This document shows positions 4,668-29,115 of a stretch of DNA of 29,282 bases, piece by piece (the stretch's first letter is position 1; every line of letters starts with the position of its first letter). The DNA is taken from IMG/VR virus record IMGVR_UViG_3300047289_000017, positions 1-29,282 of that record. One strand, given 5' to 3'. The notes under the pieces are model-generated. The model made no database searches and was not told where the DNA came from. It saw only the letters and a program-made list of their open reading frames with translations. The translations under genes and the position numbers were made by a program. Origin of the DNA: a virus.

Positions 4668-4668
4668 T

Positions 4669-6166: not shown

Positions 6167-6605
6167 TCAATTAACAATATGTCCAAAGTGTAAAGCAGAA
6201 GATGCTTGTTATGTTACTCCTATCAATGAGTTTCATAACGTATATGCTTGCTTTAGCTGCGGATTTACTACGAGCGATTTAATGAGAGAAGGAGAATTTG
6301 ATTTCGAACAATACGAAGCAGAGTTTCCAGAATTATATAAAGATATCAAACACGTAGATGAAGATAAACGAGTATGGTATCCTCAAGTAATTAATATAGA
6401 AAATCAAGGCACCGTATTTGCAAATGGAAGTAGCGCTGAAGATTGGGAATGGAGTGCAATCAAATCTATTAAATTGACAGAAGAAGAGAAAGACACACCT
6501 AAATTCAAAGGTAAAACCCACAAATCAGATTCAGCTAGTCTAAAAGGATTCGGAAGCGACTTCTTTGATGCTTGCGATTACATTGGGTTATTTGAAGTAA
6601 AATAA
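6159..6605 (+). CDS. Zinc-ribbon phage protein
   Basis: A 148-residue protein. CPKC (residues 8-11) and CFSC (about 31-34) form a zinc ribbon. The remainder is acidic with aromatic residues (FDFEQYEAEFPELYKDIKHV, WYPQVINI) and ends with a KGFGSDFFDACDYIGLF segment. It overlaps the upstream gene by eight bases. The function is unknown. A zinc ribbon followed by an acidic body suggests a protein- or nucleic-acid-binding accessory, not an enzyme. Confidence 0.7.
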   Translation: MTDQLTICPKCKAEDACYVTPINEFHNVYACFSCGFTTSDLMREGEFDFEQYEAEFPELYKDIKHVDEDKRVWYPQVINIENQGTVFANGSSAEDWEWSAIKSIKLTEEEKDTPKFKGKTHKSDSASLKGFGSDFFDACDYIGLFEVK

Positions 6606-6610
6606 AGAAT

Positions 6611-7222: not shown

Positions 7223-8202
7223 GTAAAGTAGCACTAATTACTGGTATTAACGGTCAAGACGGAAGTTATTTAGCCGAGTTATTATTAGAGAAAGGATACG
7301 AAGTGCACGGCACACTAAAGAGAAATTCTGTAGCTGAGAATCAAACAGCGAGAATTCAAGTGTACGATCAGATAAAAGATAATTTGACTTACGCAGATAT
7401 GACCGACTTAGCATCTCTTAATAGAGTGTTGGCTAAAGTACAACCAGATGAGATATACAACTTAGCGGCTCAATCTCATGTAAGAATATCATTCGATCAA
7501 CCAGTGTATACCGCAAATACTGTGGGTATAGGAACTCTTAATCTATTGGAAGCTGCGCTATCTACGTGTAAGAATGCAAAGATATATCAAGCATCTTCTT
7601 CTGAAATGTTTGGTAACTGCATAGACAAAGACCGATTTCAAAGAGAGACCACACCAATGAATCCAGTATCTCCTTACGGTTGCGCTAAAGTATTTGGATA
7701 TAACATAACAAGGAATTATAGAAACTCTTATGGTATGTTCGTATCTAATGGAATTCTATTTAACCACGAATCACCAAGAAGAGGTACTAACTTCGTAACA
7801 AATAAAGTAGTTAAAGAAGCTGTTAAGATATTCTACGGTCAATCAACGGAATTGAGATTGGGTAACTTAGAAGCAACAAGAGATTGGGGTCATGCTAAAG
7901 ATTATGTAGAAGCAATGTGGAGAATATTACAATTAGAAGATGCAGACGATTTTGTTTGTGCTACAGGTACTTCACATTCGGTTAGACAATTATGTGAATA
8001 TGTTTTTAGCAAATTAGAATTAAACTACGAAGACTACGTAAAGCTAGACATGAAGTTTCTAAGACCAGAAGAGTTAACAGATTTAAAAGGAGATCCTAGC
8101 AAATTAATGAAAGCTACTGGTTGGAAACCTACTTATACGTTTGAAACGATGTTGGACGAGATGATTTCATATTGGTTAAAAGAATTAAATAGAGTATTCT
8201 AA
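7219..8202 (+). CDS. gmd: GDP-mannose 4,6-dehydratase
   Basis: A 327-residue short-chain dehydratase converting GDP-D-mannose to GDP-4-keto-6-deoxy-D-mannose. Residues 5-15 (ALITGINGQDG) form the NADP-binding G-x2-G-x2-G. The family hallmarks RNS, YNLAAQSHV, SSSEMFGN and SPYGCAK (Y153, K157) are all present, as is NHESPRRGTNFVT, typical of Gmd. It is somewhat shorter than the bacterial enzyme (about 340-370). It overlaps the next gene (TAATG), which encodes the following enzyme in the pathway. The product can feed both the fucose branch and possibly the 3-dehydratase at 9769. Confidence 0.95.
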   Translation: MSKVALITGINGQDGSYLAELLLEKGYEVHGTLKRNSVAENQTARIQVYDQIKDNLTYADMTDLASLNRVLAKVQPDEIYNLAAQSHVRISFDQPVYTANTVGIGTLNLLEAALSTCKNAKIYQASSSEMFGNCIDKDRFQRETTPMNPVSPYGCAKVFGYNITRNYRNSYGMFVSNGILFNHESPRRGTNFVTNKVVKEAVKIFYGQSTELRLGNLEATRDWGHAKDYVEAMWRILQLEDADDFVCATGTSHSVRQLCEYVFSKLELNYEDYVKLDMKFLRPEELTDLKGDPSKLMKATGWKPTYTFETMLDEMISYWLKELNRVF

Positions 8203-9101
8203 TGACAAAAGTAATTACCGGAGGAACAGGATTAATAGGATCTGCTTTTAATGAAGGAATTAAATTAACTTCTAAGAGAGACCTAAGAGATTACGACAAA
8301 GCTAAATTCGCAATATCAATGTACAAGCCAGATGTGGTAGTGCACTGCGCAGCAAAAGTCGGTGGAGTTGGGGCTAACATGCAATTTCCTGCTGATTTTT
8401 TTATGGACAACATTAGAATGAATACGAATGTAATTCAAGCTTGTCAAGAGTTAAAGATACCAAAACTAGTTTCATTTTTATCTACGTGTGTATTTCCTGA
8501 TAAAGTGGAATATCCATTGGATGAAACTAAAATAGAACTAGGTCCACCACACTCATCTAACTTCGCTTACGCTTACGCTAAGAGAATGGCTGACGTACAG
8601 ATTAGAGCATTCAACCAACAATACGGTACACAATACTTTTCAGTGATTCCTTGTAACGTATATGGACCAAACGATAACTATAGCTTAGAAGTAGGTCATG
8701 TAATTCCAATGTTAATTCACAAGTGTTATCTGGCCAAAAAGAATAGAAAGACTTTTGAAGTATGGGGTGATGGTACTCCACTTAGAGAATTTGTTTATTC
8801 AAAAGACGTAGCGAACATAGTAGATCTACTTATCCAGAAATATACAGGGACTGAACCAGTGATCATATCTAATCCAACTGAGTATTCCATTAAGCACGTA
8901 GTTGATCTGATTGTGGAGTACATGGGCTTCAAAGGGAAAGTAAAGTGGTTGACAGACAAACCAAACGGACAACACAGAAAACCATCGTCTAATGCTAAAC
9001 TTTTGAGTATCATTGGAGACTATGAGTTTACCACTTTGGAGAAAGGTTTAAAAGAATCAATAGAATGGTTTATATTAAATTACCCAAACGTTAGAAAATA
9101 A
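8202..9101 (+). CDS. fcl: GDP-L-fucose synthase
   Basis: A 299-residue epimerase/reductase producing GDP-L-fucose from GDP-4-keto-6-deoxymannose. It has GGTGLIGSAF for NADP, FLSTCVFPDK (S94, C96), YAYAKRM (Y123, K127) and EVGHVIP (H166), which are the catalytic serine, cysteine, tyrosine, lysine and histidine. Several blocks (STC-FPDK-YP-DET, GPPH-SNF-Y-YAKRM-DVQ, the closing Q-K-SN-KL) recall the animal enzyme more than E. coli WcaG. It directly follows gmd with a one-base overlap. A GDP-colitose synthase role is possible, since those enzymes are related, but the adjacent GT11 transferase favours fucose. Confidence 0.93.
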   Translation: MTKVITGGTGLIGSAFNEGIKLTSKRDLRDYDKAKFAISMYKPDVVVHCAAKVGGVGANMQFPADFFMDNIRMNTNVIQACQELKIPKLVSFLSTCVFPDKVEYPLDETKIELGPPHSSNFAYAYAKRMADVQIRAFNQQYGTQYFSVIPCNVYGPNDNYSLEVGHVIPMLIHKCYLAKKNRKTFEVWGDGTPLREFVYSKDVANIVDLLIQKYTGTEPVIISNPTEYSIKHVVDLIVEYMGFKGKVKWLTDKPNGQHRKPSSNAKLLSIIGDYEFTTLEKGLKESIEWFILNYPNVRK

Positions 9102-9772
9102 TGACAAGAGAAATAGTAATAGCAGCGTACGACAAATACTTGGATTGGTTAGATAAATTCAATTCAGATATTAAAGTTACTGTCTATAGAAAAGGAGAAG
9201 AAGCAAAACAAAGAGAAGACGAGATTAAATTAGAACCTAATAAGGGTAGATGCGTACATACATTCTTTAATCACATATACACTAACTACGACAATCTATC
9301 AGATATTACATTCTTTGGTCAAGATTGGCCTTTCGACCATTGGGAAGATATCGTAGAAGTTGTAAACAATGGCACTGAAAACCTTAGGCATCAATTAAAA
9401 ATAGGAGGCTATTACGGATTTCATTTCAATACCATAACAGTTCCATCTCCATTAGGCGGCACAATGTGGGCATTGAGTCCATCTAAACAACACGGAGAAG
9501 GAAGAGTGTTAGTTTGTCAAAGCAATGGATATCCTCAAGACTCTAATCCAAATATAAACGTAGACAAATACTGGGATTTATTATTTACAGATGAAAAGCC
9601 TACAGAATATGAATTCATGCCAGGCGGTCATTTCGGAATTACCAAAGAACATGCTCAATTAAGATCTAAAGAGTTCTATAAAAATGTGTGCGATTTTCTA
9701 TTAGAAGATGAATCAGCACCGTGGATGATAGAAAGATTAGAGTGTTACATATTCAACCCAAACATAAAATGA
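9101..9772 (+). CDS. DUF3431-like protein
   Basis: A 223-residue protein resembling DUF3431 proteins: an opening IVIAAYDKYLDWLDKF, a YRKGEE block, PNKGRCVHTFFNHIYTNYDNLSDITFFGQDWPFDH, and an ending MPGGHFGITKEH-LR. The family is found near glycosyltransferases in fungi, bacteria and viruses, and its fold is thought to be transferase-like. No reaction is established. It overlaps both neighbours (1 and 4 bases), within the GDP-sugar part of the island, so a role in the same glycan is likely. It could be a glycosyltransferase of an undefined family. Confidence 0.75.
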   Translation: MTREIVIAAYDKYLDWLDKFNSDIKVTVYRKGEEAKQREDEIKLEPNKGRCVHTFFNHIYTNYDNLSDITFFGQDWPFDHWEDIVEVVNNGTENLRHQLKIGGYYGFHFNTITVPSPLGGTMWALSPSKQHGEGRVLVCQSNGYPQDSNPNINVDKYWDLLFTDEKPTEYEFMPGGHFGITKEHAQLRSKEFYKNVCDFLLEDESAPWMIERLECYIFNPNIK

Positions 9773-11055
9773 TTAAACTAGAAAATATACAAGAGTTAGT
9801 CGGTAACCACGTAGCTCCTTACATTTACAATGCTAAGAACTTTACACCAGGTAAAACACCGATCTATTACTCAGGTCCTTATTGGGATAATAAAGAGACC
9901 GAAGCTGCAATAGAAAGTTTCTTAAACGGTAAGTGGATTACTACCGGTGAAAAGGTTTACAAGTTTGAAAACCAATTCAGTAAGAGATTCAACGTTAAGC
10001 ACTCGCACATGGTAAATTCAGGTAGCTCTGCTAACTTGGTATTAATTGCCGCGTTAAAGAAGAGATTTAATTGGGCTGACGATGATGAAATTATAGTATC
10101 TCCAGTTGGATTCGCTACTACAGTATCAGTGCTATACCAACACAGATTAAAACCAGTATTCGTTGATATAGAATGGGACACACTTAATTTTGACTTAGAT
10201 CAAGTAGAAGCAAAGATAACAGACAAAACAAAAGGCATCTTCATATCTCCAGTATTGGGTAACCCTCCAGATATAGATAGATTGGTTGAAATGGCTGAGA
10301 AGTACAATCTAAAATTGATTGGAGATAACTGCGATAGTTTGGGTTCTAAATGGAACGGCAAGTTCTTAAGTGAATATTACGTGGCATTCTCTAATTCATT
10401 TTATCCAGCGCATCACATCTCAACAGGCGAAGGCGGAATGATTTGTACTAACGACGATGAGTTAAAGAAACTATTTGTTAGTATTAGTTGGTGGGGTAGA
10501 GATTGCTATTGCATAGGATCTGCTAACTTATTGCCTTGCGGTACATGCGGTAATAGATTTGATAAGTGGTTAGATAATTACGACGGAGTTATCGATCACA
10601 AGTATGTATTCTCTCAAATGGGTTATAACTTAAAACCATTGGATTTACAAGGCGCAATTGGATTGGAACAGTTAATTAAGCTAGATGAAATGGAAGCAAA
10701 GAGACGATCAGCTAAAGCGAGATTGACAAAGATCTTTACCGATAACATTCCAAATTTAAGATCACCTTCTAAATTAGAGCAAGCAGATCCTTGTTGGTTT
10801 GGCACTCCATTTATATGCGATGAAGATGGATTGAAACATAGATTAGTTGCATTCTTAGAAGAGAATAAAATACAAACAAGAAACTATTTTGCTGGAAATA
10901 TTTTAATGCATCCAGGCTATTCATTCTTGGATGACTACAAAAATTATCCAGAAGCAAACAAAGTATTAGACAAAGTATTCTTTATAGGCGCAGCACCACA
11001 CTACACAGAACAAGTGTTTGCATACATTGAACAAGTAGTAAAAAAGTTTAAATAA
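9769..11055 (+). CDS. RfbH-like PLP/2Fe-2S sugar 3-dehydratase
   Basis: A 428-residue protein of the DegT/DnrJ/EryC1 fold. The internal-aldimine lysine region reads NSFYPAHHISTGEGG (H215, H216), so histidine replaces lysine as in RfbH/E1 and ColD. RDCYCIGS and PCGTCGNRF supply C246, C248, C257 and C260, matching the cysteine block of RfbH (CDP-4-keto-6-deoxyglucose 3-dehydrase, 2Fe-2S) and absent from ColD. DHKYVFSQMGYNLKPLDLQGAIGLEQL and FAGNILMHPG are also RfbH-like. It should remove the C3 hydroxyl of a 4-keto-6-deoxyhexose. The natural substrate may be the Gmd product or a host CDP-sugar; the reductase partner E3 is not in this window. Start chosen at 9769 (ATGA overlap). Confidence 0.88.
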   Translation: MIKLENIQELVGNHVAPYIYNAKNFTPGKTPIYYSGPYWDNKETEAAIESFLNGKWITTGEKVYKFENQFSKRFNVKHSHMVNSGSSANLVLIAALKKRFNWADDDEIIVSPVGFATTVSVLYQHRLKPVFVDIEWDTLNFDLDQVEAKITDKTKGIFISPVLGNPPDIDRLVEMAEKYNLKLIGDNCDSLGSKWNGKFLSEYYVAFSNSFYPAHHISTGEGGMICTNDDELKKLFVSISWWGRDCYCIGSANLLPCGTCGNRFDKWLDNYDGVIDHKYVFSQMGYNLKPLDLQGAIGLEQLIKLDEMEAKRRSAKARLTKIFTDNIPNLRSPSKLEQADPCWFGTPFICDEDGLKHRLVAFLEENKIQTRNYFAGNILMHPGYSFLDDYKNYPEANKVLDKVFFIGAAPHYTEQVFAYIEQVVKKFK

Positions 11056-11870
11056 TGATATCTATATTCGGAGGAACTGGATTTATAGGATCTAAGTTCT
11101 ACAACAAACATAAAGAAAATTCAGTCTTAATACCAAGAGACGAAGTACAACCTAAATCTAATAGAGTATTGTACTTAATTAGCACAGTCGATAATTACAA
11201 CGTATTAGAAAATCCTTTCGTAGACATAGAAACAAATCTAATACATTTAATGAAAGTATTGGACAACTGTAAAGGAAAAGATATAGAGTTTACATTCGTC
11301 AGTTCTTGGTTCGTGTACGGTGATACACACTTACCGGCTAGAGAATCATCTCCTTGTAAACCAAAGGGATTCTATTCTATAACTAAGTTAGCAGCGGAAC
11401 AATTAATAGAATCTTATTGCAACACTTTTAATATTAAATACAAGATCGTAAGACTTGGAAATGTAATAGGTAAAGGAGACGGCAAAGTTTCAAAGAAAAA
11501 GAATGCGTTACAATTTTTAATAGACGAGTTGAAGGCTGATAGAGATATTAATTTATACAACAACGGAGAATTCTATAGAGACTTCGTACATGTAGACGAT
11601 GTAGTTGCGGGTATTAAGTTCGTTATGGATCGTGGAGAAAGCGGAGAGATATACAATTTAGGCTCAGCAAGAAAGCCAACACTATTCAAAGATATTATTG
11701 CTTACGCTAAACAGGAAATAGGATCTCACAGCAATATAGGAACAATGGAAGCATCAGACTTTCACAAGATAGTACAAGTAGAATCCATGTATTTGGATTC
11801 AAGTAAATTAGGAGCATTAGGATTTTTCCCATCTGTAGGAGTTTACGAAGCAGTTAAACAAATGATATGA
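11055..11870 (+). CDS. NAD(P)-dependent sugar reductase/epimerase (extended SDR)
   Basis: A 271-residue extended short-chain dehydrogenase. It has IFGGTGFIGSKF for the cofactor, FVSSWFVYGD, and the catalytic pair in FYSITKLA (Y107, K111). RDFVHVDDVVAGI and IYNLGSARKPT follow. It is short for the family (usually about 310) and lacks a clear acidic residue after the second strand, so it may prefer NADPH. It starts on the last base of the RfbH-like gene. In O-antigen clusters a 4-ketoreductase such as abequose synthase follows RfbH, so a 4-ketoreductase making a 3,6-dideoxyhexose is a sensible guess. Confidence 0.82.
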   Translation: MISIFGGTGFIGSKFYNKHKENSVLIPRDEVQPKSNRVLYLISTVDNYNVLENPFVDIETNLIHLMKVLDNCKGKDIEFTFVSSWFVYGDTHLPARESSPCKPKGFYSITKLAAEQLIESYCNTFNIKYKIVRLGNVIGKGDGKVSKKKNALQFLIDELKADRDINLYNNGEFYRDFVHVDDVVAGIKFVMDRGESGEIYNLGSARKPTLFKDIIAYAKQEIGSHSNIGTMEASDFHKIVQVESMYLDSSKLGALGFFPSVGVYEAVKQMI

Positions 11871-12703
11871 TAAGTTATAAAAAGATAGGACATTTTGGTC
11901 GTCTCGGAAATCAGATGTTTCAATTTGCTTCCACTGTAGGCGTAGCTAATAAAACTGGACATGATGTAGCATTTCCAAAAGAGAATGTAGATGTACCAAG
12001 CGTAGAGCACTTTAAAGACGGAGTTAGAAGAGAAGTCTATTTTGATTTACCTAAGTATTTCGACAATGTTAAGTTGACGTTAAAACCAGAATCTGAAATA
12101 CAAACGTTACATATAGCACAAGAACCTTACTTCCATTTCTGTCAAGATCTATTTAGAGTTCCAGATCAGACCAATTTAATGGGTTATTTTCAAACAGAAA
12201 AGTACTTTGAACACTGTAGCGAAACAATACGAGAATTCTTTGAATTCAATTCAGAAACAAAAAAGAAAGCCGAGTCCTCATTCCCAGTATTCCCTATGCA
12301 ATTAGAATTTGTATCAGTGCATTTAAGAAAGGGAGATTATGCCGGTCTTCAACAGTTTCATCCCGTAATGGATGCTGACTACTACTTCAATGCTATGACC
12401 CATTTTATGAATGGTAACTATTGTTTCTTAATATTCTCTGACGATATAGAATACGCAAAAGAATTGTTTGGAGATCAAGAGAACATTATTTACATGGAAG
12501 GAAACGATCCTGATGTAGATATGTGTATGATGAGTATGTGTCATCACAACGTAATAGCTAATAGCAGTTTTAGTTGGTGGGGCGCATGGTTAAACCAAAA
12601 TCCCAATAAAAAAGTTATAGCTCCAAAAAAATGGTTTGGTCCTGCCTACAACGGAGTTCACGATACAAAAGATTTATACCCTCAATCATGGATAAAAGCG
12701 TAA
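11867..12703 (+). CDS. GT11-family fucosyltransferase (alpha-1,2 type)
   Basis: A 278-residue transferase. GHFGRLGNQMFQFAS is the family opening and HLRKGDY (H152-D157) is the HxRxGD(Y) motif binding GDP-fucose. MMSMCHHNVIANSSFSWWGAWLN and VIAPKKWFGP are the conserved C-terminal blocks of FutC/WbsJ/FUT1-like enzymes. It would transfer L-fucose from GDP-L-fucose to a galactose-type acceptor; linkage and acceptor are not shown by the sequence. It lies three genes after the GDP-fucose pathway and overlaps the gene before by four bases. Confidence 0.92.
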   Translation: MISYKKIGHFGRLGNQMFQFASTVGVANKTGHDVAFPKENVDVPSVEHFKDGVRREVYFDLPKYFDNVKLTLKPESEIQTLHIAQEPYFHFCQDLFRVPDQTNLMGYFQTEKYFEHCSETIREFFEFNSETKKKAESSFPVFPMQLEFVSVHLRKGDYAGLQQFHPVMDADYYFNAMTHFMNGNYCFLIFSDDIEYAKELFGDQENIIYMEGNDPDVDMCMMSMCHHNVIANSSFSWWGAWLNQNPNKKVIAPKKWFGPAYNGVHDTKDLYPQSWIKA

Positions 12704-13404
12704 TACCTTTTTTTAGTGTCGCTATTCCTACATGGGGAATTCAAGGTAAAGGAGTCGAATACTTAGAACACTCATTTAATATATTAGCGCAACAGAGCTT
12801 TACAGATTTTGAAGTAGTTATATCAGATCATAGCGAAGATGACGACATAGAGAACTTATGTAATTCTTGGAGTTCAATGATGAATATTAAGTGCTTTAGA
12901 AACTCTAATGGTAGAGGCAAAATAGCGCCGAATATGAATAACGCTATTGAACATTCAAGCGGTCTATTTATCAAGATGTTATTTCAAGACGATTTCTTAT
13001 ACGATACAGATTCTCTTCAGATCATATACGATAGTATAGCGGAGAATCAAGACAAAGATTGGTTTATTACGGCGTGTGTACATACAGATGATTGCGTAAC
13101 TATGTATGATAGAATGACTCCTTACTATCACGATCGCATATATGCAGGAGTTAATACTATAAGTTGTCCGTCTGTACTGACAATTAGAAATGAATATACA
13201 AAACCAAAATTTGATGAGACATTGAATTGGTTGGTGGACGTGGAGTACTATAAAAGATTACACATGATATATGGAGATCCTGTTGTTATAGATATGGTAT
13301 GCACAGTTAATAGAAATTCAGAAGTAAGAGCTACCAATATAATAACAGAGAGACAAAAACAAGAAGAAATTCAAAGAGTAATAAGACGATATGAAACTAA
13401 ATAA
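12688..13404 (+). CDS. GT2-family glycosyltransferase
   Basis: A 238-residue GT-A transferase from the ATG at 12688; an upstream extension would overlap the fucosyltransferase in another frame. FFSVAIPTWGIQGKGVEYLEHSFNIL and FEVVISDHSEDDDIE are the GT2 opening and first acidic site. NMNNAIEHSSGLFIKMLFQDDFLYD includes the QDDF metal site, and LNWLVDVEYYKRL is the later helix. Donor and acceptor are unknown. It overlaps the upstream gene by 16 bases and the downstream one by 14. Confidence 0.82.
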   Translation: MDKSVIPFFSVAIPTWGIQGKGVEYLEHSFNILAQQSFTDFEVVISDHSEDDDIENLCNSWSSMMNIKCFRNSNGRGKIAPNMNNAIEHSSGLFIKMLFQDDFLYDTDSLQIIYDSIAENQDKDWFITACVHTDDCVTMYDRMTPYYHDRIYAGVNTISCPSVLTIRNEYTKPKFDETLNWLVDVEYYKRLHMIYGDPVVIDMVCTVNRNSEVRATNIITERQKQEEIQRVIRRYETK

Positions 13405-14047
13405 TGTAACCATTGCAGCCGTAGCAGGTACTAAAGCTATCGAAACTCTTAAGGCTATTAAGTATAGTATGCGAGAGCTAGAGTTTGACCGTGCAATCCT
13501 AATTACTCCAGAAGATATACAAGACGATCAAGTAGAGATCATTAAGTGCGAACCACTAAACTACGAACAATACAATCACTTTATAGTTTACAGACTACAC
13601 GAGTACATTACAACTACACACTGCTTATTAATTCAGAACGATGGATACGTAGTGAATCCAGACAAATGGCAAGACGAGTGGATGCAATACGATTACATAG
13701 GTGCTTTATGGCCACTGCCTCAAGACGACTTCTCTTTCAGAGATCAAGACGGAAACATACAAAGAATGGGTAATGGAGGATTCACACTAAGAAGTAAAAA
13801 GCTATTATGTGTGGCAAATGATTTAGATTTGGAATGGAAACAGTATTATGGATTCTATCATGAAGACGGATTCTTTTGTTGTCACCATAGAAAAACTTAT
13901 GAATCAGCTGGATGTAAGTTTGCACCAATAGAGGTAGCTGCACAATTTAGTCATGAAACCATGGTAGCAGAAAATTATGGAAACATACCATTTGGATTTC
14001 ATGGAAGAAACAATTATTATTATCACATAACACAAAAAAGTTTATAA
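13391..14047 (+). CDS. DUF5672-like putative glycosyltransferase
   Basis: A 218-residue protein matching DUF5672: NVTIAAVAGTKAIETLKAIKYS at the start, then HFIVYRLHEYITTTHCLLIQNDGYVVNPDKW, DYIGALWP, RMGNGGFTLRSKKLL and FYHEDGFFC. The IQNDG and GNGGF blocks resemble GT-A folds, and the family occurs in glycan clusters, but I know of no measured activity. It is embedded between GT2 and methyltransferase genes, with overlaps on both sides. Confidence 0.8.
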   Translation: MKLNNVTIAAVAGTKAIETLKAIKYSMRELEFDRAILITPEDIQDDQVEIIKCEPLNYEQYNHFIVYRLHEYITTTHCLLIQNDGYVVNPDKWQDEWMQYDYIGALWPLPQDDFSFRDQDGNIQRMGNGGFTLRSKKLLCVANDLDLEWKQYYGFYHEDGFFCCHHRKTYESAGCKFAPIEVAAQFSHETMVAENYGNIPFGFHGRNNYYYHITQKSL

Positions 14048-14622
14048 TGAACGAAGAACAAAGATTAGAAGAACTATTTAACATCCCAAGAATGGGTCAC
14101 GCTGCATTAGAACCTCACAATAGCGTAAGAGGCCTTTATGAATTAGTTAAATTATACATAACTTCAGATACTGAGATGGTAGAGATCGGATCTTTTCAAG
14201 GCGTATCTACAATGTTATTTGCCTTATTTGCAAAAAAAGTAAATAGCGTAGATTGTTACGATTATGTTGTACCTCCAACAGGCAGAATCCCTTCTCACGA
14301 TCAATTGTTCGTGGATGCTGAGAAAGTATTTATAGAAAGGACTTCTCACATAAAAAATATAAATAAGATTAGAAAATCTAGTGTTGAAGCCTCTAATGAT
14401 TTCGTAGATGGATCTTTAGATCTAGTATACGTAGATGCTGAACACGATCCAATTAGTGTTAGATCTGATATTAATGCGTGGAAGAATAAGATTAAAATTG
14501 GTGGCATTTTATGCGGACATGATTTCTATCTACCACACATCTACACTATTTTACACGAAGAAGGATTAATCAACGAATTGTATACATATCCAGACAGTTC
14601 ATGGTCTGTAATAATTAAATAA
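14047..14622 (+). CDS. Class I SAM-dependent methyltransferase
   Basis: A 191-residue protein. EMVEIGSFQGVSTMLFALFA is motif I (E-x-G-x-x-x-G) for S-adenosylmethionine. VNSVDCYDYV is the acidic end of strand 2, and DLVYVDAEHDPISVRSDINAWKNKIKIGGILCGHDF is the Methyltransf_24-type motif with metal-binding-like D and H residues. O-methylation of a sugar is the likely role, for example capping the glycan. It starts on the last base of the preceding gene and ends one base before the epimerase. Confidence 0.8.
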   Translation: MNEEQRLEELFNIPRMGHAALEPHNSVRGLYELVKLYITSDTEMVEIGSFQGVSTMLFALFAKKVNSVDCYDYVVPPTGRIPSHDQLFVDAEKVFIERTSHIKNINKIRKSSVEASNDFVDGSLDLVYVDAEHDPISVRSDINAWKNKIKIGGILCGHDFYLPHIYTILHEEGLINELYTYPDSSWSVIIK

Positions 14623-14623
14623 T

Positions 14624-15619
14624 ATGAAGGTATTAATAACAGGAGTCGCAGGTCTATTAGGTTCAAGACTTGCGGATTGGATTATAGAACATAAACCAGA
14701 AGTAGAGGTAGTAGGTATCGATGATTTATCAGGAGGCTACTTAGAGAATGTAAACCCAAAGGTTAATTTCTGGCAGATGAATTTAGTAGAACATCCTATT
14801 GAGAATTGTTTTGCTACTAACGAATTTGATTATGTATTCCACTTCGCAGCTTACGCAGCAGAAGGTTTAAGTCCATTCATTAGAAGATACAACTACGATA
14901 ATAACCTAGTCGCAACAGCAAGAGTTGTTAACAATTGTATTAAGTACGATGTGAAGAGACTAATCTTTACTTCTACTTTAGCTGTATACGGTCATGGTTA
15001 TGGTGGCATATTCGACGAAACACAAGTGCCTAAGCCAATAGATCCATACGGAGTTGCTAAGTACGCTTGTGAGATGGACATTCAAATTGCGGGTGAACAA
15101 CATGGTTTGGATTGGTGTATCATTAGACCACACAATGTATACGGTCGTAAGCAAAATATATGGGATAAGTATCGTAATGTATTGGGTATTTGGATGTATC
15201 AACAGATGAACGGAGAACCAATGACAATCTTTGGAGACGGTACACAAACAAGAGCGTTTAGTTGTATCGACGATATAGTTGAACCGCTATGGAATTCAGC
15301 AATAGAACCACGAGCATCTAAAGAGATTATCAATTTAGGAGGAGTAGAAGAGTGGAGTATCAACGACGCAAATAAAGTATTAAGAGATATAATCAAATAC
15401 GGAGCAGAGTATCAATATAAAGAAGGAAGACACGAAGTAAAGCATTCAATTCCTACATATCAGAAATCAGAAGACATTCTTGGTTTTAAACATAAGACTA
15501 CGTTAGAGGAAGGATTATATGATATGTGGTTATGGGCACAACGTCAACCAAATAGAGACAGATTCGTTTGGCCTTCATACGAATTAGACAAAGGCATTTA
15601 TTCATTCTGGAAAAAGTAA
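14624..15619 (+). CDS. NAD-dependent nucleotide-sugar epimerase/dehydratase
   Basis: A 331-residue extended SDR. KVLITGVAGLLGSRLADWI is the NAD loop, and VVGIDDLSGG carries the acidic residue typical of NAD preference. FHFAAYAAEGL, FTSTLAVYG and DPYGVAKYACE (Y142, K146) are the active-site blocks, and RPHNVYGRKQNIWDKYRNV is GalE/UDP-glucuronate-epimerase-like. The length is normal for the family. It probably interconverts C4 epimers of a UDP-sugar; the exact substrate cannot be read. Confidence 0.85.
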   Translation: MKVLITGVAGLLGSRLADWIIEHKPEVEVVGIDDLSGGYLENVNPKVNFWQMNLVEHPIENCFATNEFDYVFHFAAYAAEGLSPFIRRYNYDNNLVATARVVNNCIKYDVKRLIFTSTLAVYGHGYGGIFDETQVPKPIDPYGVAKYACEMDIQIAGEQHGLDWCIIRPHNVYGRKQNIWDKYRNVLGIWMYQQMNGEPMTIFGDGTQTRAFSCIDDIVEPLWNSAIEPRASKEIINLGGVEEWSINDANKVLRDIIKYGAEYQYKEGRHEVKHSIPTYQKSEDILGFKHKTTLEEGLYDMWLWAQRQPNRDRFVWPSYELDKGIYSFWKK

Positions 15620-15620
15620 T

Positions 15621-16514
15621 ATGATATACACAAAATTCATGTACGGTCAAGGTTTCGGTAACCAGCTTGCAGTTTATGTAACAACTAGAGCCATAGCTAA
15701 AAGAAACGGTTACGAGTTCGGTTATGCAGGTTTAGAAAACTTTGGAGACAGAAGATACAACGACAAAGGCGTGTACTTTATGGATATAGATTTGGGTACA
15801 CAAGTGCCTGAACACGAGTTCAACATGTACACAGAAAAAGAAACAAGAATAAAGCTAGATCATTCAGAACACGATCGTACCCATGGTTGTGATATAAGAT
15901 TAATAGACCAAGATCTGTTGAATGTAGCTGACGACACTAGAATTATGGGTATTATGCAAGGCGAAGACTATTTTTGGAATTATAGAGAAGAGATTAAAGA
16001 CTGGTTAAAAGTAAAACCAGAATTTGATTGCGTAGATTATAGTCAAGATGACATATGTGTATTGAATATTAGAGACTACGAAGCAGATCCTACTCTATTC
16101 TTATCAAGAGATTATTGGGTTAAAGCAATCTATCACATGCTTAGTTTAAACCCTAACATGCAATTCTTAGTTATCACCGAGAATCCTGATATGGCAAAGA
16201 GATTGCTACCAGAATTAACCGACAATGTATATCACTTTGATTTAGCTAAAGACTATTCTATTGTTAAGAATGCTAAGTGGTTAATCATATCCAATTCAAG
16301 CTTTGCTTATTTTCCAGCATTTTGTAGTGATGCTCATCTAATTATAGCACCGAAGTATTGGTGTAGACACAACGTATCTGATGGATATTGGAGTTGTGGT
16401 TATAACATAAGTCGTAAGTTTACATACATGGATAGACAAGGCCAATTACAATCTTATACTGATGTAGCAAGAGAATTTGAATTATATAAAAAAGAAAGCA
16501 AGATATATGGCTAG
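15621..16514 (+). CDS. Divergent GT11-like glycosyltransferase
   Basis: A 297-residue protein. It opens with KFMYGQGFGNQLAVYVTTRAIAKRNGY, the GT11/fucosyltransferase N-terminal loop. Where HxRxGDY is expected it has CVLNIRDYEADP, keeping Arg and Asp but losing His and Gly. AKWLIISNSSFAYFPAFCSDAHLIIAPKYW parallels the NSSFSWW...VIAPKKW block of the enzyme at 11867. It may use another GDP-sugar or be a fucosyltransferase of different specificity. It overlaps the next gene by eight bases. Confidence 0.7.
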   Translation: MIYTKFMYGQGFGNQLAVYVTTRAIAKRNGYEFGYAGLENFGDRRYNDKGVYFMDIDLGTQVPEHEFNMYTEKETRIKLDHSEHDRTHGCDIRLIDQDLLNVADDTRIMGIMQGEDYFWNYREEIKDWLKVKPEFDCVDYSQDDICVLNIRDYEADPTLFLSRDYWVKAIYHMLSLNPNMQFLVITENPDMAKRLLPELTDNVYHFDLAKDYSIVKNAKWLIISNSSFAYFPAFCSDAHLIIAPKYWCRHNVSDGYWSCGYNISRKFTYMDRQGQLQSYTDVAREFELYKKESKIYG

Positions 16515-17370
16515 AGTATTTGATGTGTTTACATTCTTTAATGAATTGGATTTATTAGAACTAAGATTAGAGATGTTAGATCCATACGTAGATCAATTCG
16601 TATTGATAGAATGCGTAGAAACTTTCTCAGGTAAACAGAAGCCATTGCACTTCATGAATAACAAAGAGAGGTTCTCAAAGTATTTACATAAAATATACCA
16701 TCATGTAACTTATGATCCACCAAAATCATTCGACGATTTACAACAAAGAATAACGAATCCTAATATAGATAAAGATGTTAAGCAAGTTTGTATACAAGCT
16801 TTAACTAGTTCTAATGTGCCTAAAGGAGAATTACACTGGCTAAAAGAATTCTATCAAAAAGAAACTATAAGATTTGCTATAGAAAATGCTGGAGCAGAGA
16901 ACGACGATCTAATATTCGTTACAGATTTAGACGAGATATGGAATCCAGAGTTAGACTATACGCAAATAGAAAACGATAAGATATACAAGTTAAGACAACT
17001 GGCATATTCAGGTTACATGAACATAAGATCTTCAGAAGATTGGGCCGGTACATTATTAACCAGATATACAAATATAGATGGAGCTTGTTTAAACCATCTT
17101 AGAACTCCATCAAAAACTAAGTACGAGTACGTTAACAATGCGGGTTGGCACTTCACATTTATGGGAGGAGAGAAACAAGTTAAGATGAAGTTAGAAGCTT
17201 ACGGTCACCAAGAGTACAACAACGATTCTGTTAAGGATAGAGTCAAAGATTTACTAGCAAACGGTCAAGACGTTTTAGGCAGAACCAATTTTAGATTTTG
17301 GTTGGACGAATCGCAACTGCCAAAGTATTTACTAGATAACAAACAAAAGTATAAACAATTTTTTAGATGA
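16507..17370 (+). CDS. GT17-family glycosyltransferase
   Basis: A 287-residue protein resembling GT17 (beta-1,4-N-acetylglucosaminyltransferase III family). It has ARVFDVFTFFNELDLLELRLEML at the start, VDQFVLIECVETFSGKQKPLHF, then ETIRFAI and LIFVTDLDEIWNP with the DxD-type acidic site. AGWHFTFMGGEKQVKMKLEAYGHQEYN closes the domain. The ATG at 16507, with an eight-base overlap on the upstream stop, fits better than the upstream in-frame ATG inside the previous gene. The family is known in eukaryotes, bacteria and large viruses. A GlcNAc donor is likely but not proven. Confidence 0.85.
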   Translation: MARVFDVFTFFNELDLLELRLEMLDPYVDQFVLIECVETFSGKQKPLHFMNNKERFSKYLHKIYHHVTYDPPKSFDDLQQRITNPNIDKDVKQVCIQALTSSNVPKGELHWLKEFYQKETIRFAIENAGAENDDLIFVTDLDEIWNPELDYTQIENDKIYKLRQLAYSGYMNIRSSEDWAGTLLTRYTNIDGACLNHLRTPSKTKYEYVNNAGWHFTFMGGEKQVKMKLEAYGHQEYNNDSVKDRVKDLLANGQDVLGRTNFRFWLDESQLPKYLLDNKQKYKQFFR

Positions 17371-18503
17371 TAACATTCTGCATACCAAGCAAGAACAACT
17401 TACGATACTTAAAACCTTGTATCAAATCTATTCAAGATAATTCTTACTATCCAAATCAAATCATTGTGTATGTAGATCAAGACACAGACGGAACTGTAGA
17501 ATGGTTGAGAGAGAATGGTATTAAGTTCATTCAAAACCACGAAGCGACTCCAAGAGGAATTGGCTTCGCTTACGATAACATGTTTCAATGGGCCGACAGA
17601 GAATATGTAATAGCATTTCACGCCGACATGATTCTTGGTCCTCATGCGGATAAACACATGATGGATATTAAAACAAAGGACAACATCGTTTGCGCCACTC
17701 GTATAGAACCACCGTTACATCCAGCTGGAATAGAGAAGATCGTGCAAGATTTTGGTATGTGGCCAGAAGATTTAAAGATTGAAGAGTTTAACAAGTTCGT
17801 CGAAGCTAACAAAAGCGATAAGATAACTAAAAGCATCTTCGCTCCGTGGTTAATTAGAAAGGACCAACACTTAGGACATGATCCTATATTCTTGTCAGTA
17901 TTCGAAGACGCTGATCTATTTAGAAGATTCAAATTAAAAGGTTACGATTTGATTCAATCTTGGTCTGCAATGGTATATCACTTAACTTGTAGAGGCGGAC
18001 AATTTGCACACGCAGAAAAGATGGAAGACTTTCAAAAGAAGGACGAGAGCTGGCAGAAGAATAACCAAATATCCGCTAACGAATACATTAGAAAGTGGGG
18101 AGGATTTTTAAAACAGTCTGATACATTAGAACCTATCCCTAATATCAAGTACAATATAGGTCTTAGAATATTAAATTGTTTCAATGATGGTATGATGGGA
18201 GTAGAACCATACTTTGATCAGATACAATGCGAAGCAGATCCTACAAATTACATTAACAGAATTAAAGACGCTACTTCTTTCGATATAGCTTCTAAGTTTG
18301 TAAGTGAGTTAACAACAGATATGATACTAGAAGCGGACTACAAAGATATTCTTAATAATCAAGAACTTTTTAATTATATCTTGCATAATCTACCAGATTT
18401 AATTGCGAATGAAGTTAAAGAAATTGGAGAATACGAACTACAGATATTCAAACTAATTGTAAATAAGGTAGAACAACATCAACCTAAATTAAATTTATGC
18501 TAA
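17367..18503 (+). CDS. GT2-family glycosyltransferase, tandem copy 1
   Basis: A 378-residue protein. The N-terminal half is a GT2 domain: TFCIPSKNNLRYLKPCIKSI, IIVYVDQDTDGTVEWL, FHADMILGP (acidic site), CATRIEPPLHPAG and FEDADLFRRFKLKGYDLIQSW...VYHLTCRG. The last 120 or so residues are an extra domain of unknown type. It shares most of these blocks with the next gene, so the two arose by duplication. The start overlaps the GT17 gene by four bases. Confidence 0.85.
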   Translation: MITFCIPSKNNLRYLKPCIKSIQDNSYYPNQIIVYVDQDTDGTVEWLRENGIKFIQNHEATPRGIGFAYDNMFQWADREYVIAFHADMILGPHADKHMMDIKTKDNIVCATRIEPPLHPAGIEKIVQDFGMWPEDLKIEEFNKFVEANKSDKITKSIFAPWLIRKDQHLGHDPIFLSVFEDADLFRRFKLKGYDLIQSWSAMVYHLTCRGGQFAHAEKMEDFQKKDESWQKNNQISANEYIRKWGGFLKQSDTLEPIPNIKYNIGLRILNCFNDGMMGVEPYFDQIQCEADPTNYINRIKDATSFDIASKFVSELTTDMILEADYKDILNNQELFNYILHNLPDLIANEVKEIGEYELQIFKLIVNKVEQHQPKLNLC

Positions 18504-24330: not shown

Positions 24331-24936
24331 ATGAGATTAAGCAAAAATGATAAGACATTTATTGAGATAGTAAAAAATGGTTGTAAGAAACACAAGATAT
24401 CGTGTAAGCTTAAAGAAGTTAAGTACTTAAAACCAATTCCATCTGTAAGATGCACTGGATATTTTGATGACGAAGGTAAAACGTTGCAAGTCGCAATGAA
24501 ACAGAAAGATTCTTTTGAAATATTGGTACACGAATACAGTCACCTTACGCAATGGGTAAATAAGATACCAGTTTATATGAAAGCAAATAAGTATCTGTTC
24601 GCTGTAGATGCTTGGATATCAGGTGAGAAGTTCTCTAGTTCTATGGTAGATGCCGCAATACAAGGCGTAATAGATCTAGAATTAGACAATGAGAAGAGAG
24701 CAGTTAAGTTGATAAGCAAATACAAATTGAGTATTGATAAAGAAAGCTACATAAAGAAAGCGAATGCTTATTTGTATTTTTATCATTGGATGAGAAAGAC
24801 TAGAAAGTGGAGTAGTCCTAATAACTTACCTTATAGGAACAAGAACATTATTGCCGCCATGCCAAACACATTCAGAGGCAAGTACGATAAGTTACCAAAG
24901 AGATTTGAAAAACTATTTAAACAAGAAAATATATAA
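24331..24936 (+). CDS. Zincin-like metallopeptidase 1 (HEYSH)
   Basis: A 201-residue protein. EILVHEYSHLTQW gives H67-E68-x-x-H71, and NEKRA (E121-x-x-A124) is a good candidate third zinc ligand 50 residues on, the layout of gluzincin peptidases. Before the motif lie a basic helical segment (KNGCKKHKISCKLKEVKYL) and an FDDEGKTLQVAM strand, the usual strand leading to the active helix. The substrate is unknown. Two more HExxH proteins follow within 2.6 kb. Confidence 0.7.
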   Translation: MRLSKNDKTFIEIVKNGCKKHKISCKLKEVKYLKPIPSVRCTGYFDDEGKTLQVAMKQKDSFEILVHEYSHLTQWVNKIPVYMKANKYLFAVDAWISGEKFSSSMVDAAIQGVIDLELDNEKRAVKLISKYKLSIDKESYIKKANAYLYFYHWMRKTRKWSSPNNLPYRNKNIIAAMPNTFRGKYDKLPKRFEKLFKQENI

Positions 24937-24937
24937 T

Positions 24938-25174
24938 ATGAAAGCAACATTAGAATTTGACTTAGAAGAAGGCCAAGACAAGACAGCTCATTTACGATGC
25001 GTTAAAGCAGTAAACATGGCAGTAGCACTATGGGATATGGATCAATACTTGAGAGGACTTATTAAATATGGAGAGCTCGACGATGCTACTTATAAAACAC
25101 TTGAAGAGACCAGAGATAAACTAAGAGAAATTATGAGCGAAAATTCAATTGATTTAGACGAGTTATTAAATTAG
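24938..25174 (+). CDS. Small phage protein, WDMDQYLR type
   Basis: A 78-residue protein. MKATLEFDLEEGQD, then AVALWDMDQYLRGLIKYGE and EETRDKLREIMSE match a small protein common in many phages (an F-x-L-x-E strand followed by the W-D-M-D-x-x-LR helix). No function has been assigned that I know of. ATG 24938 follows the zincin stop by one base. Confidence 0.75.
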   Translation: MKATLEFDLEEGQDKTAHLRCVKAVNMAVALWDMDQYLRGLIKYGELDDATYKTLEETRDKLREIMSENSIDLDELLN

Positions 25175-25178
25175 TGTT

Positions 25179-25742
25179 ATGAAGATAAATAGAAAACGTG
25201 TAGCGTGGTATCTACAGAATATCAGAGCTAAGAACGAAGAACTAACAGACGAACAGTTGGTAGATAAATTAGCAACATGGATGGAAACGAATCCTGAATG
25301 CATAAACATCGACGGTGTATCCCACCCAGGTCGTTACTACTATTCTACGGTTGGTTATGGCATATTCAGTTTATTGGGAGAAAGATACAGAATGGGTAGA
25401 GTAGAGATATTCGATAAGCAAAACGAGAGTGGATATCAAATAGCCGAAGGATCTTATTGTATGCCGTTCGTATCCGCTAATCAGTTCGAAGATTTCATAG
25501 AGTCTATAGAGACAGATCTACCTATAAGCATCAACATAGGATCTCATGATTGGTGCGAAGAAGCTTGCGCTATAGATTTAGGCTTCGAGAATGCAGAGGC
25601 AATGAGAGACAAAGCGAATGTTAAAGCATATCGAGATAAGCTGAACGACGAATACGCTGTAGAACAGGGTTACAAGGATTTTGCAGACTTATTATCTAAA
25701 AGTAAATGGAATAAAACAAAACAAGATGAAGATACAATATAA
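25179..25742 (+). CDS. Protein of unknown function
   Basis: A 187-residue protein not recognised. It has a helical start (RVAWYLQNIRAKNEELTDEQLVDKLATWM), then a beta-rich middle (GRYYYSTVGYGIFSLLGERYRMGRVEIF). A short SHDWCEEACAIDLGFENAEAM segment precedes a helical, lysine-rich end. It ends with a 17-base overlap into the second zincin gene, suggesting coupled translation. Confidence 0.65.
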   Translation: MKINRKRVAWYLQNIRAKNEELTDEQLVDKLATWMETNPECINIDGVSHPGRYYYSTVGYGIFSLLGERYRMGRVEIFDKQNESGYQIAEGSYCMPFVSANQFEDFIESIETDLPISINIGSHDWCEEACAIDLGFENAEAMRDKANVKAYRDKLNDEYAVEQGYKDFADLLSKSKWNKTKQDEDTI

Positions 25743-26391
25743 CATAACAGAAATAAAACCAAAGGTATTTGCAGTTGTGGTACCAGATAGATACCACAGA
25801 GCAATGTTGTTCATGAGAGTACAAGAGTACTACGAATCTCCTAACCCTAAATTCAGAGGCAAGTCTTTTGGAATATGGGACTACATAGAATGGTATAGTA
25901 GAAAGAACGGAGACAGATTTAATTATGCATCAGATTGGGTCGGCTTTAACTTCCCTTTAGAAGTAGCCTTAAACTGCTATGATACTTTGGATGATGCATA
26001 CACTCCTTACGATGAGCTCATGCATAAGATTGCTTGGGATATATATGAAATGAACAAAGATTCTGGTAAAGCCTATATCATTGGCGTAGCAGATTTGACG
26101 TCTAGCACATTTCAACACGAACTGTGTCACGCATATTACCATATCAATAAGAAGTATAAGAAAGAGGTGGATGACATCACTAAAGATATAGATCCTAAAA
26201 TATATAAGAGAATGTGTAAGAACTTAGAAGATATGGGCTATACTAAAAAGGTATTCAATGACGAGATTCAGGCCTACACATGTATCGATTCAGATTACTT
26301 TGAATTCAATTTCAAGATATCGGAAACTAAATTAGAAAAACTATCAAAGAAGTATAAAGTCATATATGAAAAATACGTTAACCAAAAATAA
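25726..26391 (+). CDS. Zincin-like metallopeptidase 2 (HELCH)
   Basis: A 221-residue protein. SSTFQHELCHAYYHI gives H131-E132-x-x-H135, and NDEIQAYTCID gives E180-I-Q-A183 as the likely third zinc ligand, 45 residues later. EIQAY is a common third-ligand context in small zincins. The N-terminal 120 residues are alpha/beta with many aromatics (FNYASDWVGFNFPLEVALNCYDTL). ATG 25726 starts inside the previous gene. No family name can be assigned with confidence. Host-protein processing or maturation of virion proteins is possible. Confidence 0.72.
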   Translation: MKIQYNITEIKPKVFAVVVPDRYHRAMLFMRVQEYYESPNPKFRGKSFGIWDYIEWYSRKNGDRFNYASDWVGFNFPLEVALNCYDTLDDAYTPYDELMHKIAWDIYEMNKDSGKAYIIGVADLTSSTFQHELCHAYYHINKKYKKEVDDITKDIDPKIYKRMCKNLEDMGYTKKVFNDEIQAYTCIDSDYFEFNFKISETKLEKLSKKYKVIYEKYVNQK

Positions 26392-26488
26392 AGATAAAGA
26401 GAAAGAGAGACTTAAGAAGTACAAAGAGGTACAAAAGCAAGTCATAGCCAATTTAACAAAGACAGAAAGAAAAGCATTAGGATTATGA
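26366..26488 (+). CDS. Very small basic coiled-coil protein
   Basis: A 40-residue ORF (start MKNTLTKNKDKEKERLKKYK, end RKALGL) bridging two zincin genes. It overlaps the previous stop by 26 bases, and its own TGA overlaps the next ATG (ATGA). It is lysine-rich and helical. The double overlap supports it, but no homologue is recognised. Confidence 0.5.
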   Translation: MKNTLTKNKDKEKERLKKYKEVQKQVIANLTKTERKALGL

Positions 26489-26880
26489 GAAAGGAAAGGA
26501 ACTACGTAACTAGAGCTACCGCACAGAAGATACTGGATTGGTGTTACTTCACATACGGTAGATCCAAGATAAATGGTCCGTATCCGGCTCTTGAGTTCAG
26601 AAAGCCTGACTATTATACTGGAGACGACTACGGCTATTACGACGAAGTGGATCAGACCATATTCGTAAACAAAGAAATTCACCACACAGTAGAAGAGCTT
26701 GTTAAGACCATTATTCATGAGTATTGGCACTACGTTAGTCACTCTATGCATGAGTATCAGATATTAGCCAAGTGGTTGACTTCAGACAAGAACCCAATGG
26801 AGAAGGATGCAATAAGGATAGAGAGAAGAGACTATAAAAAATGTCTTAGGTTTCTTAAAAAAGAATACAACATTGGTTAA
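26485..26880 (+). CDS. Zincin-like metallopeptidase 3 (HEYWH)
   Basis: A 131-residue protein. VDQTIFVNKEIHHTVEELVKTIIHEYWHYVSHSMHEY supplies the edge strand and H78-E79-x-x-H82. NPMEKDAIRIERRDY supplies E106-x-x-A109, like the NPxExxA element of small phage and bacterial zincins (the third ligand). The first 40 residues contain a YPALEFRKPDYY strand. This is the shortest and cleanest of the three zincins. The sole upstream spacing is a four-base overlap with the 40-residue ORF. Confidence 0.8.
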   Translation: MRKERNYVTRATAQKILDWCYFTYGRSKINGPYPALEFRKPDYYTGDDYGYYDEVDQTIFVNKEIHHTVEELVKTIIHEYWHYVSHSMHEYQILAKWLTSDKNPMEKDAIRIERRDYKKCLRFLKKEYNIG

Positions 26881-26903: not shown

Positions 26904-27119
26904 ATGCTGATATACGATCAACTAGATAGAATAGCGGAAGAGGCACAGATTCCCACCGAGCTACACGAATACCTACACATAAACAGTAGAGAGGTTTGGG
27001 TAGACACAATGGTTTTGCTAATAGAGAGCGGACAGATCAAACCGGTACCGAAGACGATCAAAGTTTTAGCTGAGAATTGGGAAGATTTGTTATGCAGGAA
27101 GTATTCAAATTTAAACTAA
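26904..27119 (+). CDS. Small helical protein of unknown function
   Basis: A 71-residue protein (LIYDQLDRIAEEAQIPTELHEYLHINSREVWVDTMVLLIESGQIKPVPKTIKVLAENW). It is helical and acidic. It contains LHEYLH, which superficially resembles HExxH but lacks a second histidine at the right spacing. It ends four bases before the holin-like gene. The function is unknown. Confidence 0.65.
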   Translation: MLIYDQLDRIAEEAQIPTELHEYLHINSREVWVDTMVLLIESGQIKPVPKTIKVLAENWEDLLCRKYSNLN

Positions 27120-27123
27120 GATA

Positions 27124-27417
27124 ATGACGATTTTACAGGCAACGGTTGATAGTTCTAGTGTGAGTTCCGCCTTTATGCAATATGGTATATTGGGCGTATT
27201 AGCTTTCTTATTAGGATATTTTGCATGGCAACAGTACCTAAGACTAGTAGAAAAGAACGAAGCACTTGAGGAGAAGGTAGATAAACTGCAAGAGCAGATG
27301 ATGAAGATACTAGTAGAAGAAAGAGATCGACTGGATACCTTGATAAGAGAGAACACAGCAGCACTACAAGAACTACAGAAGACTATATATAAGTACATGG
27401 TTAAAAACAGAGAATAA
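27124..27417 (+). CDS. Holin-like membrane protein with coiled coil
   Basis: A 97-residue protein. A hydrophobic segment around residues 18-36 (MQYGILGVLAFLLGYFAWQQY) is followed by a long heptad helix (RLVEKNEALEEKVDKLQEQMMKILVEERDRLDTL) to the end. This matches the BhlA/UviB-like phage holin family, with a single transmembrane helix and a charged helical tail. If so it permeabilises the inner membrane at lysis, but no lysin gene is recognised beside it. A different membrane anchor role cannot be excluded. Confidence 0.65.
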   Translation: MTILQATVDSSSVSSAFMQYGILGVLAFLLGYFAWQQYLRLVEKNEALEEKVDKLQEQMMKILVEERDRLDTLIRENTAALQELQKTIYKYMVKNRE

Positions 27418-28188: not shown

Positions 28189-29115
28189 ATGAATACACTA
28201 CAAACTACGTTGACCGCGTTACAGTCACAATTGGAATCTCAAAAAGAAGCATCTAAGTATTACTACGACAATGTCTTCGCTAAAGAAATTGCTACGTTAG
28301 AAGCAAGTATCGTTGAATGGTTTTACAAATTTACAGGAGAAACTTACACAATTAAGATCGAAAGTGGCGGAGAAACATTACAGATCTATTCTCTTGATCA
28401 AGAAAAAGCAGATATGTGGAGACATAATGCTATTACCATAAACTATTACTCTCGATACAACGAAGAAGCGAAAGCAAAATTAAGTTTCTATTCTAAAGAG
28501 TGCGAGTACGACGATACTAAGACTATTGCTTACTTAAAAACTTTAGGTATGGTTTCTGTATTAATGCCTCAAATCAATTTTATGATGCCTACGTGGAAAG
28601 CTGAGTATCAACAGTACGCACAAAAACGTTATGCTACATTCGAGCAACCAATATCTCACACAGAATTTGCTATACGTAAAACAGAGACTCAGATATTAGA
28701 AGAAGGTTTAGCTTCTTACAAGCAAGCTGGATTTACACATACCATATCTTCTCGTACAGAATGCGAAAGACACTACAATATTGATTACGATCAACAAGGT
28801 GCTTATACATTAGAGATAAAACCTAATCAGTATTTTGATCTACAAACAGGTAGAGGTCGATACGATAATGTAAGAGTGTATGCATTCGAAGTTGTAGGTC
28901 ACGTTAAAAACGGTAAAGTCGAGATGAACATAAAGACTACTGCGGTAGAAGACGGATCATTCAGTCCTATAGTTGTTACTAAAGCAAGATTCGACGACTT
29001 CATTGCAACTGTATACAATTGGGAGAACTTTGATAGACCTAAATACAATGCCAAGCAAACTGAAAGGTATCTTGATCACATGAGTAAATTTACTACTGTA
29101 GTAGAAGTAGCTTAA
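28189..29115 (+). CDS. Protein of unknown function (308 residues)
   Basis: A 308-residue protein not recognised. The first 40 residues are a helix (LQTTLTALQSQLESQKEASKYYYDNVFAKEIATLEASIVEWFYKF). A beta-rich segment follows (YTIKIESGGETLQIYSL), then a long mixed region. Later strands (YTLEIKPNQYFDLQTGRGRYDNVRVYAFEVVGHVKNGKVEMNI) look like a barrel or sandwich. It is the first gene after regulatory region 2 and has the AAAAGTTATG context. It has no membrane segment and no visible catalytic motif. Confidence 0.7.
   Translation: MNTLQTTLTALQSQLESQKEASKYYYDNVFAKEIATLEASIVEWFYKFTGETYTIKIESGGETLQIYSLDQEKADMWRHNAITINYYSRYNEEAKAKLSFYSKECEYDDTKTIAYLKTLGMVSVLMPQINFMMPTWKAEYQQYAQKRYATFEQPISHTEFAIRKTETQILEEGLASYKQAGFTHTISSRTECERHYNIDYDQQGAYTLEIKPNQYFDLQTGRGRYDNVRVYAFEVVGHVKNGKVEMNIKTTAVEDGSFSPIVVTKARFDDFIATVYNWENFDRPKYNAKQTERYLDHMSKFTTVVEVA

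Follow-up and report, generated by a model that had tools for sequence, protein, structure and literature searches.

The metal site of gluzincins is described in the available part of a study on ArdC: two histidines and one glutamate hold the metal, the glutamate of the HExxH motif serves as the base, and ExxA is the "glutamate helix" motif (PMC7213743). The same portion of that study reports that ArdC carries a separate N-terminal ssDNA-binding domain, that ArdC with the metal-ligand mutation E229A is still able to promote conjugation, and that HhaI is not degraded; it also cautions against equating the site with function, given that E229A remains active in conjugation (PMC7213743). Zincin-like peptidase domains in which the helix with HExxH precedes one that bears a glutamate have been described, in the available part of a second report, for the polyvalent proteins of phages and plasmids, where these domains are fused in large multidomain proteins (PMC5512222).

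This study analyzed a 29,282-base IMG/VR virus record (hereafter the window), the right end of which is a series of small plus-strand genes. Three of these, designated Z1, Z2, and Z3, encode HExxH proteins and, unlike the domains of polyvalent proteins, are three small separate genes. According to the best explanation of the data, to which we assign a probability of roughly 0.6, a T4-like phage encodes three divergent metallopeptidases of the gluzincin type, Z1–Z3, which are soluble and intracellular, consist of one domain each, and act on separate protein targets. This kind of gene is already known. The recurrent grouping of the three genes is new, and so is the Z2 family, a member of which was also seen in an archaeal genome bin; a literature search yielded no publication that we recognized as describing this three-gene set. 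Setting priorities among phage genes without a known function is difficult; here, three adjacent ones share a predicted chemistry, and each predicted enzyme offers a single-residue handle, the glutamate of HExxH.

The window and its gene run

The window contains two tRNA genes, and positions 3225–18500 comprise a long stretch of ORFs whose translations read as glycosyltransferase-, nucleotide-sugar epimerase/dehydratase-, and aminotransferase-like proteins. At the nucleotide level, bases 1–25000 matched none of 50,697 phage records. A promoter and terminator scan of the window was uninformative, promoter-like sites being rarer than in shuffles. The features of the Z1–Z3 region are as follows.

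24331–24936, plus strand: Z1, 201 aa, predicted gluzincin-type metallopeptidase-like protein (sequence, conservation, model)
24529–24543, plus strand: HExxH of Z1, HEYSH, residues 67–71, on predicted helix 61–76 (motif, conservation, model)
24691–24693, plus strand: Glu121 of Z1, proposed third zinc ligand, on predicted helix 103–130 (conservation, model)
24938–25174, plus strand: small ORF, 78 aa, in the Z1–Z2 interval
25179–25742, plus strand: ORF, 187 aa, in the Z1–Z2 interval, sharing 17 bases with the beginning of Z2
25726–26391, plus strand: Z2, 221 aa, HExxH/Glu protein, family lacking a curated model (sequence, conservation, model)
26116–26130, plus strand: HExxH of Z2, HELCH, residues 131–135, on predicted helix 127–140 (conservation, model)
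26263–26265, plus strand: Glu180 of Z2 (in DEIQA), proposed third zinc ligand, on predicted helix 174–187 (conservation, model)
26485–26880, plus strand: Z3, 131 aa, related to PHROG 87 "metallo-protease", DUF3920, DUF6782, and M78 (profile matches)
26716–26730, plus strand: HExxH of Z3, HEYWH, residues 78–82 (motif, conservation)
26800–26802, plus strand: Glu106 of Z3 (in MEKDA), proposed third zinc ligand (motif, conservation)
26904–27119, plus strand: Z4, 71 aa, conserved partner 3' of Z3, HxxxH kept but the glutamate not

A TTG is present farther upstream in the Z2 ORF, at 25681; because methionine occupies the position of 25726 in 18 of 20 aligned Z2 sequences, the ATG at 25726 was taken as the start. 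Hydropathy analysis of Z1–Z3 identified no signal peptide and no membrane stretch. Farther to the right, an ORF with a membrane-anchor and coiled-coil-like sequence (27124–27417) is conserved 3' of Z3 and Z4 and weakly matches spanin and phrog_3671, and a conserved neighbor of 308 aa (28189–29115) weakly matches PDC-M04B in PADLOC (E 7e-4). PADLOC returned no defense or counter-defense match for Z1, Z2, or Z3.

Conservation of the putative active site

The earlier note reported the motifs HEYSH, HELCH, and HEYWH in Z1, Z2, and Z3, respectively, and all three were present exactly as described; the distances that it gave (50, 45, and 24 residues, respectively) were likewise reproduced, counted from the last histidine of HExxH to the glutamate of ExxA. 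The ExxA of the gluzincin pattern (E,H)xx(A,F,T,S,G) was found in all three window proteins.

HExxH is short, and two other copies that the window contains, an isolated one in the epimerase-like ORF at 14624 and one in Z4 at 26904, look incidental; in principle, a motif of five uninformative letters could have become concentrated here by chance. The motif occurred in 5 of 45 plus-strand ORFs (9277 aa; hand-picked from 82 listed), against a mean of 0.34 and a maximum of 4 in 2000 within-protein shuffles. We then considered conservation. When viral contigs were scanned with single proteins, 119 stretches were confirmed for Z1, of which 80 were kept, and 22 and 21 for Z2 and Z3, respectively; alignment-based scans gave 145 for Z2 and 164 for Z3, of which 80 each were kept. 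In profile searches of the ORFs of 241 loci, HExxH was intact in every distinct sequence of Z1 (85/85), Z2 (72/72), and Z3 (58/58). The third glutamate was intact in 85/85, 72/72, and 57/58, respectively, the remaining Z3 sequence being gapped there, and the general-base glutamate of HExxH was retained in all 215 sequences. The invariance of Z1 and Z3 is partly ascertained because their search patterns held active-site residues (DLELDNEK, which holds Glu121, for Z1 and HExxH for Z3), whereas that of Z2 is unbiased because its search patterns contained no active-site residue. Each of the 12 active-site positions uses both synonymous codons, which indicates that selection at the protein level keeps these residues. 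Invariance across 215 distinct relatives, together with the shuffle result and codon use, refutes chance concentration, which we consider practically negligible.

The three adjoining zincin-like genes that the earlier note observed are therefore a real cluster. Its suggestion that some of them might be inactive decoys is contradicted by the invariant active-site residues, given that every one of the three families retains the ligands and the general base, encoded by either synonymous codon. Retention of the third glutamate across the three families supports its proposed role as the third ligand of a zincin-type site.

Predicted folds and relationship to known zincins

Structure prediction, which the earlier note had suggested as a check, placed HExxH on one helix and the glutamate on a later one in the models of both Z1 and Z2. 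In the AlphaFold model of Z1 (pLDDT 95.3), HEYSH lies on helix 61–76 and Glu121 on helix 103–130. When this model was compared with solved structures (VIA-align 2), IrrE (3dte; Z score 6.6, rmsd 3.5, 100 residues aligned), ArdC (6sna; 6.3, 5.4, 116), and Spartan (6mdx; 5.7, 4.0, 97) ranked near the top; zincins farther down included anthrax lethal factor chains, YfcM, BlaR1, and small archaeal proteases. Z scores below 8 may, according to the tool, reflect just a common arrangement, yet the top rows repeatedly share HExxH chemistry. Sequence searches of the PDB with Z1 and Z2 (queries A1 and A2) found no convincing solved relative, and Z1 had no match in BFVD at E up to 0.001.

Every Pfam and NCBIfam match of the window proteins falls below the curated cut-off. 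Among the closest families is DUF6782 (PF20573), a "putative metallopeptidase" family matched by 32 of 35 Z1 members at E up to 0.1 (best 3e-5) and by 17 of 21 Z3 members, whereas the window Z1 itself scores 16.8 bits, under the 27-bit cut-off. Z1–Z3 resemble IrrE/ImmA proteins (M78, PF06114) in combining HExxH with a later glutamate (on a separate predicted helix in Z1 and Z2), in the best structural match of Z1, and in a weak match of 7 of 21 Z3 members at E up to 0.1; they differ in that no window protein matches PF06114 at E up to 1 and no HTH repressor partner was recognized beside them. SprT/Spartan is likewise a structural match of Z1 and a weak sequence match (SprT-like, PF10263) of 8 of 16 Z2 members, Z2 scoring 13.6–13.7 bits, below the 25.6-bit cut-off. 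The third zinc ligand of SprT is a histidine, whereas a glutamate is invariant as the candidate third ligand in Z1–Z3.

The AlphaFold model of Z2 (pLDDT 95.6) has HELCH on helix 127–140 and Glu180 on helix 174–187. The four best rows of its structural ranking were anthrax lethal factor chains, representing one gluzincin, at Z scores of 4.2–3.8, and the next row scored 3.6; a Foldseek search of the PDB with the model returned nothing at E <= 0.001. A zincin fold of Z2 is thus tentatively suggested by its motif and predicted helix order, known zincins being matched weakly. No curated family model was found for Z2, and its sole match in BFVD was a Megaviridae environmental protein (E 1.3e-5). A relative in a Woesearchaeota genome bin (L245:3148–3792) shares 26% identity and keeps HExxH and DE-x-x-A; its neighboring ORFs read as topoisomerase VI subunit-like, which suggests a cellular gene rather than a provirus. 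Another relative, ORF432 of Xanthomonas phage XacN1 (L247:3983–4627), is annotated as "ABC transporter ATP-binding protein", an annotation contradicted by its membership in an HExxH family.

The phrog_87 "metallo-protease" family is matched by 12 of the 21 Z3 members (best E 3.5e-8); the match of the window Z3 (E 7e-5) spans the catalytic region but covers 68 residues only (42–109). At E up to 0.1, DUF3920 was also matched by 12 of 21 members. A PDB match of Z3 (query A3) to "rat RAP" (E 5e-4) was regarded as spurious, no single stretch passing.

The earlier note held that the three genes are not simple duplicates. They are indeed three distinct proteins, and the Z2 profile is separate from those of Z1 and Z3 (hhalign probabilities of 6% and 0.3%), which rejects simple duplication as its source. 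The claim needs modification for the other two, since the Z1 and Z3 profiles align with a probability of 85 (E 6e-6). Judged from these profiles, Z1 and Z3 are distant homologues, and only Z2 looks independent.

The structural match of Z1 to ArdC, whose C-terminal metalloprotease domain has, in the available part of its description, an identical ligand set (PMC7213743), raises a different explanation: Z1–Z3 could be metal-binding proteins that act mainly by binding DNA or protein, in an ArdC-type counter-defense, with proteolysis secondary or absent. The conjugation activity of E229A and the undegraded HhaI, as recounted above from the same partial source (PMC7213743), favor this explanation. 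ArdC, however, has its added ssDNA-binding domain, whereas the window proteins are stand-alone, comprise 131–221 aa, and showed no ssDNA-binding domain among Pfam matches at E up to 1. Moreover, the general-base glutamate is retained in all 215 sequences, beyond the need of a metal-held structure alone. We consider a binding role without essential proteolysis unlikely, although it is the strongest competitor of the metallopeptidase reading.

Recurrence of the grouping

The 241 loci were collapsed into 148 near-identical clusters. Of the 76 Z1 clusters, 22 have Z3 directly 3' of Z1, with a spacing of -20 to 3 bp, and Z2 is the next picked gene after Z1 in 10 clusters, at gaps of 1–3 bases in 3 of them and 503–744 bases in 7. 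The longer gaps can hold skipped small genes; gene picking dropped both small ORFs that separate Z1 from Z2 in the window. All three genes are present in 10 of the 148 clusters, and the clustering recurs in relatives at 42–50% identity.

We also examined 33 long records, which were hand-chosen via 33 loci and may include close relatives. Z1 was found in 23, Z2 in 19, and Z3 in 19, with some Z3 E-values of just 1e-9 to 1e-12, and eight records (G001, G002, G006, G014, G015, G018, G023, and G033) carry all three. Z1 and Z2 lie within 2 kb of each other in 8 of the 11 long records with both. Among the 16 with both Z1 and Z3, the distance is less than 2 kb in 5, 4–5.1 kb in 4, and more than 30 kb in 7. 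The grouping is thus recurrent but, as these last seven records show, not obligatory.

The Z4 family sits directly 3' of Z3 in 31 clusters. Z4 was considered as a fourth zincin and ruled out: both histidines are kept in 20 of 20 relatives, but HE in only 11. In a 274-kb record, an M78 (IrrE-like) protein above the Pfam cut-off (L099:2930–3349) is encoded immediately upstream of Z1, placing another zincin beside it.

Virus type and proposed role

A T4-type portal and an S77 prohead protease were each found in 12 of the 33 long records, including G001 (174 kb), and the best reading of the window virus is a large T4-like phage. Protein searches of the phage records found Z1 in 4, Z2 in 2, and Z3 in none. 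Cultivated phages that carry such genes are Xanthomonas phage XacN1 (Z1 and Z2) and Stenotrophomonas phages CM1 and RAS14 (Z1).

Two jumbo phages, XacN1 and RAS14, have their Z1 gene approximately 3 kb 3' of the portal gene, a position that would suit virion-assembly proteases processing head or tail proteins. In G001, however, the portal and S77 prohead protease genes lie at 67–73 kb and Z1–Z3 at 136–138 kb, approximately 70 kb away. Because this relative encodes its own T4-type protease at such a distance, Z1–Z3 are unlikely to substitute for the prohead protease or to mature the capsid, and we regard a virion-assembly role in general as very improbable.

For the preferred reading of Z1–Z3 as intracellular metallopeptidases, metal binding is very likely and protein cutting is likely. 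From the observed sequence, conservation, and gene neighborhood and the predicted folds of Z1 and Z2, we infer metal binding, proteolysis, targets, and timing as follows. The infected cell would produce Z1, Z2, and Z3 from small non-structural genes that follow one another in the same direction. In each protein, a single metal ion would be bound by the two histidines of HExxH and the glutamate of the later conserved helix, and the HExxH glutamate would activate water for peptide-bond cleavage. The three enzymes would differ in their substrates, which are most likely host proteins or regulators, as for IrrE/ImmA-type enzymes. Separate targets are preferred over a staged cascade, such as the stepwise processing of host-defense or phage proteins raised in the earlier note, because the surroundings of the sites differ and the genes travel together. 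The presence of Z1 and Z2 relatives in the cultivated phage XacN1 means that targets can be sought directly.

A neighboring CobT-like and MoxR-type gene pair

In other phages, two further families recur upstream of Z1 or Z2. F28 proteins (650–770 aa) have an N-terminal HExxH in 15 of 16 members, the sixteenth ending at a contig edge just before the motif, and weakly match CobT_C, a VWA domain (E 0.008). F22 is a MoxR/CbbQ-type AAA+ ATPase (AAA_5, E 2e-16, with a CbbQ_C match). Across the 148 clusters, the gene orders were F28 F22 Z1 (7), F28 F22 x Z1 (3), F28 F22 Z1 Z2 (2), and F28 F22 Z2 (3).

These orders and domain matches raise the possibility that Z1 and Z2 belong to an ATP-driven module, in which the MoxR-type ATPase and the CobT-like VWA protein would present substrates to the small zincins or mature them. 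More broadly, large phages might have their own ATP-dependent protein-targeting machine, composed of a MoxR ATPase, an HExxH VWA protein, and exchangeable zincins (Z1, Z2, and M78-like ones in other phages), that would unfold and cut chosen host proteins, the window phage keeping its three-gene zincin part. Searches of G001 and G033, which are the two long relatives of the window phage, yielded no F28 relative, and the set of the window thus does not need one. We consider the module doubtful, and the wider machine equally so.

A survey of archaeal tailed viruses, in its available part, treats viral CobST as cobaltochelatase and considers the peptidase annotation of cobT mistaken (PMC8651126). 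Because F28 relatives occurred in just 2 of the 50,697 phage records, we do not claim that F28 is that cobT; its HExxH suggests that a peptidase reading is worth testing. The link of Z1 and Z2 to the MoxR/VWA pair offers a possible function for viral genes otherwise called cobalt-chelatase subunits. An example of the F28–F22 pair is found at L132:1954–4266 and L132:4426–5742, and like pairs occur at other loci.
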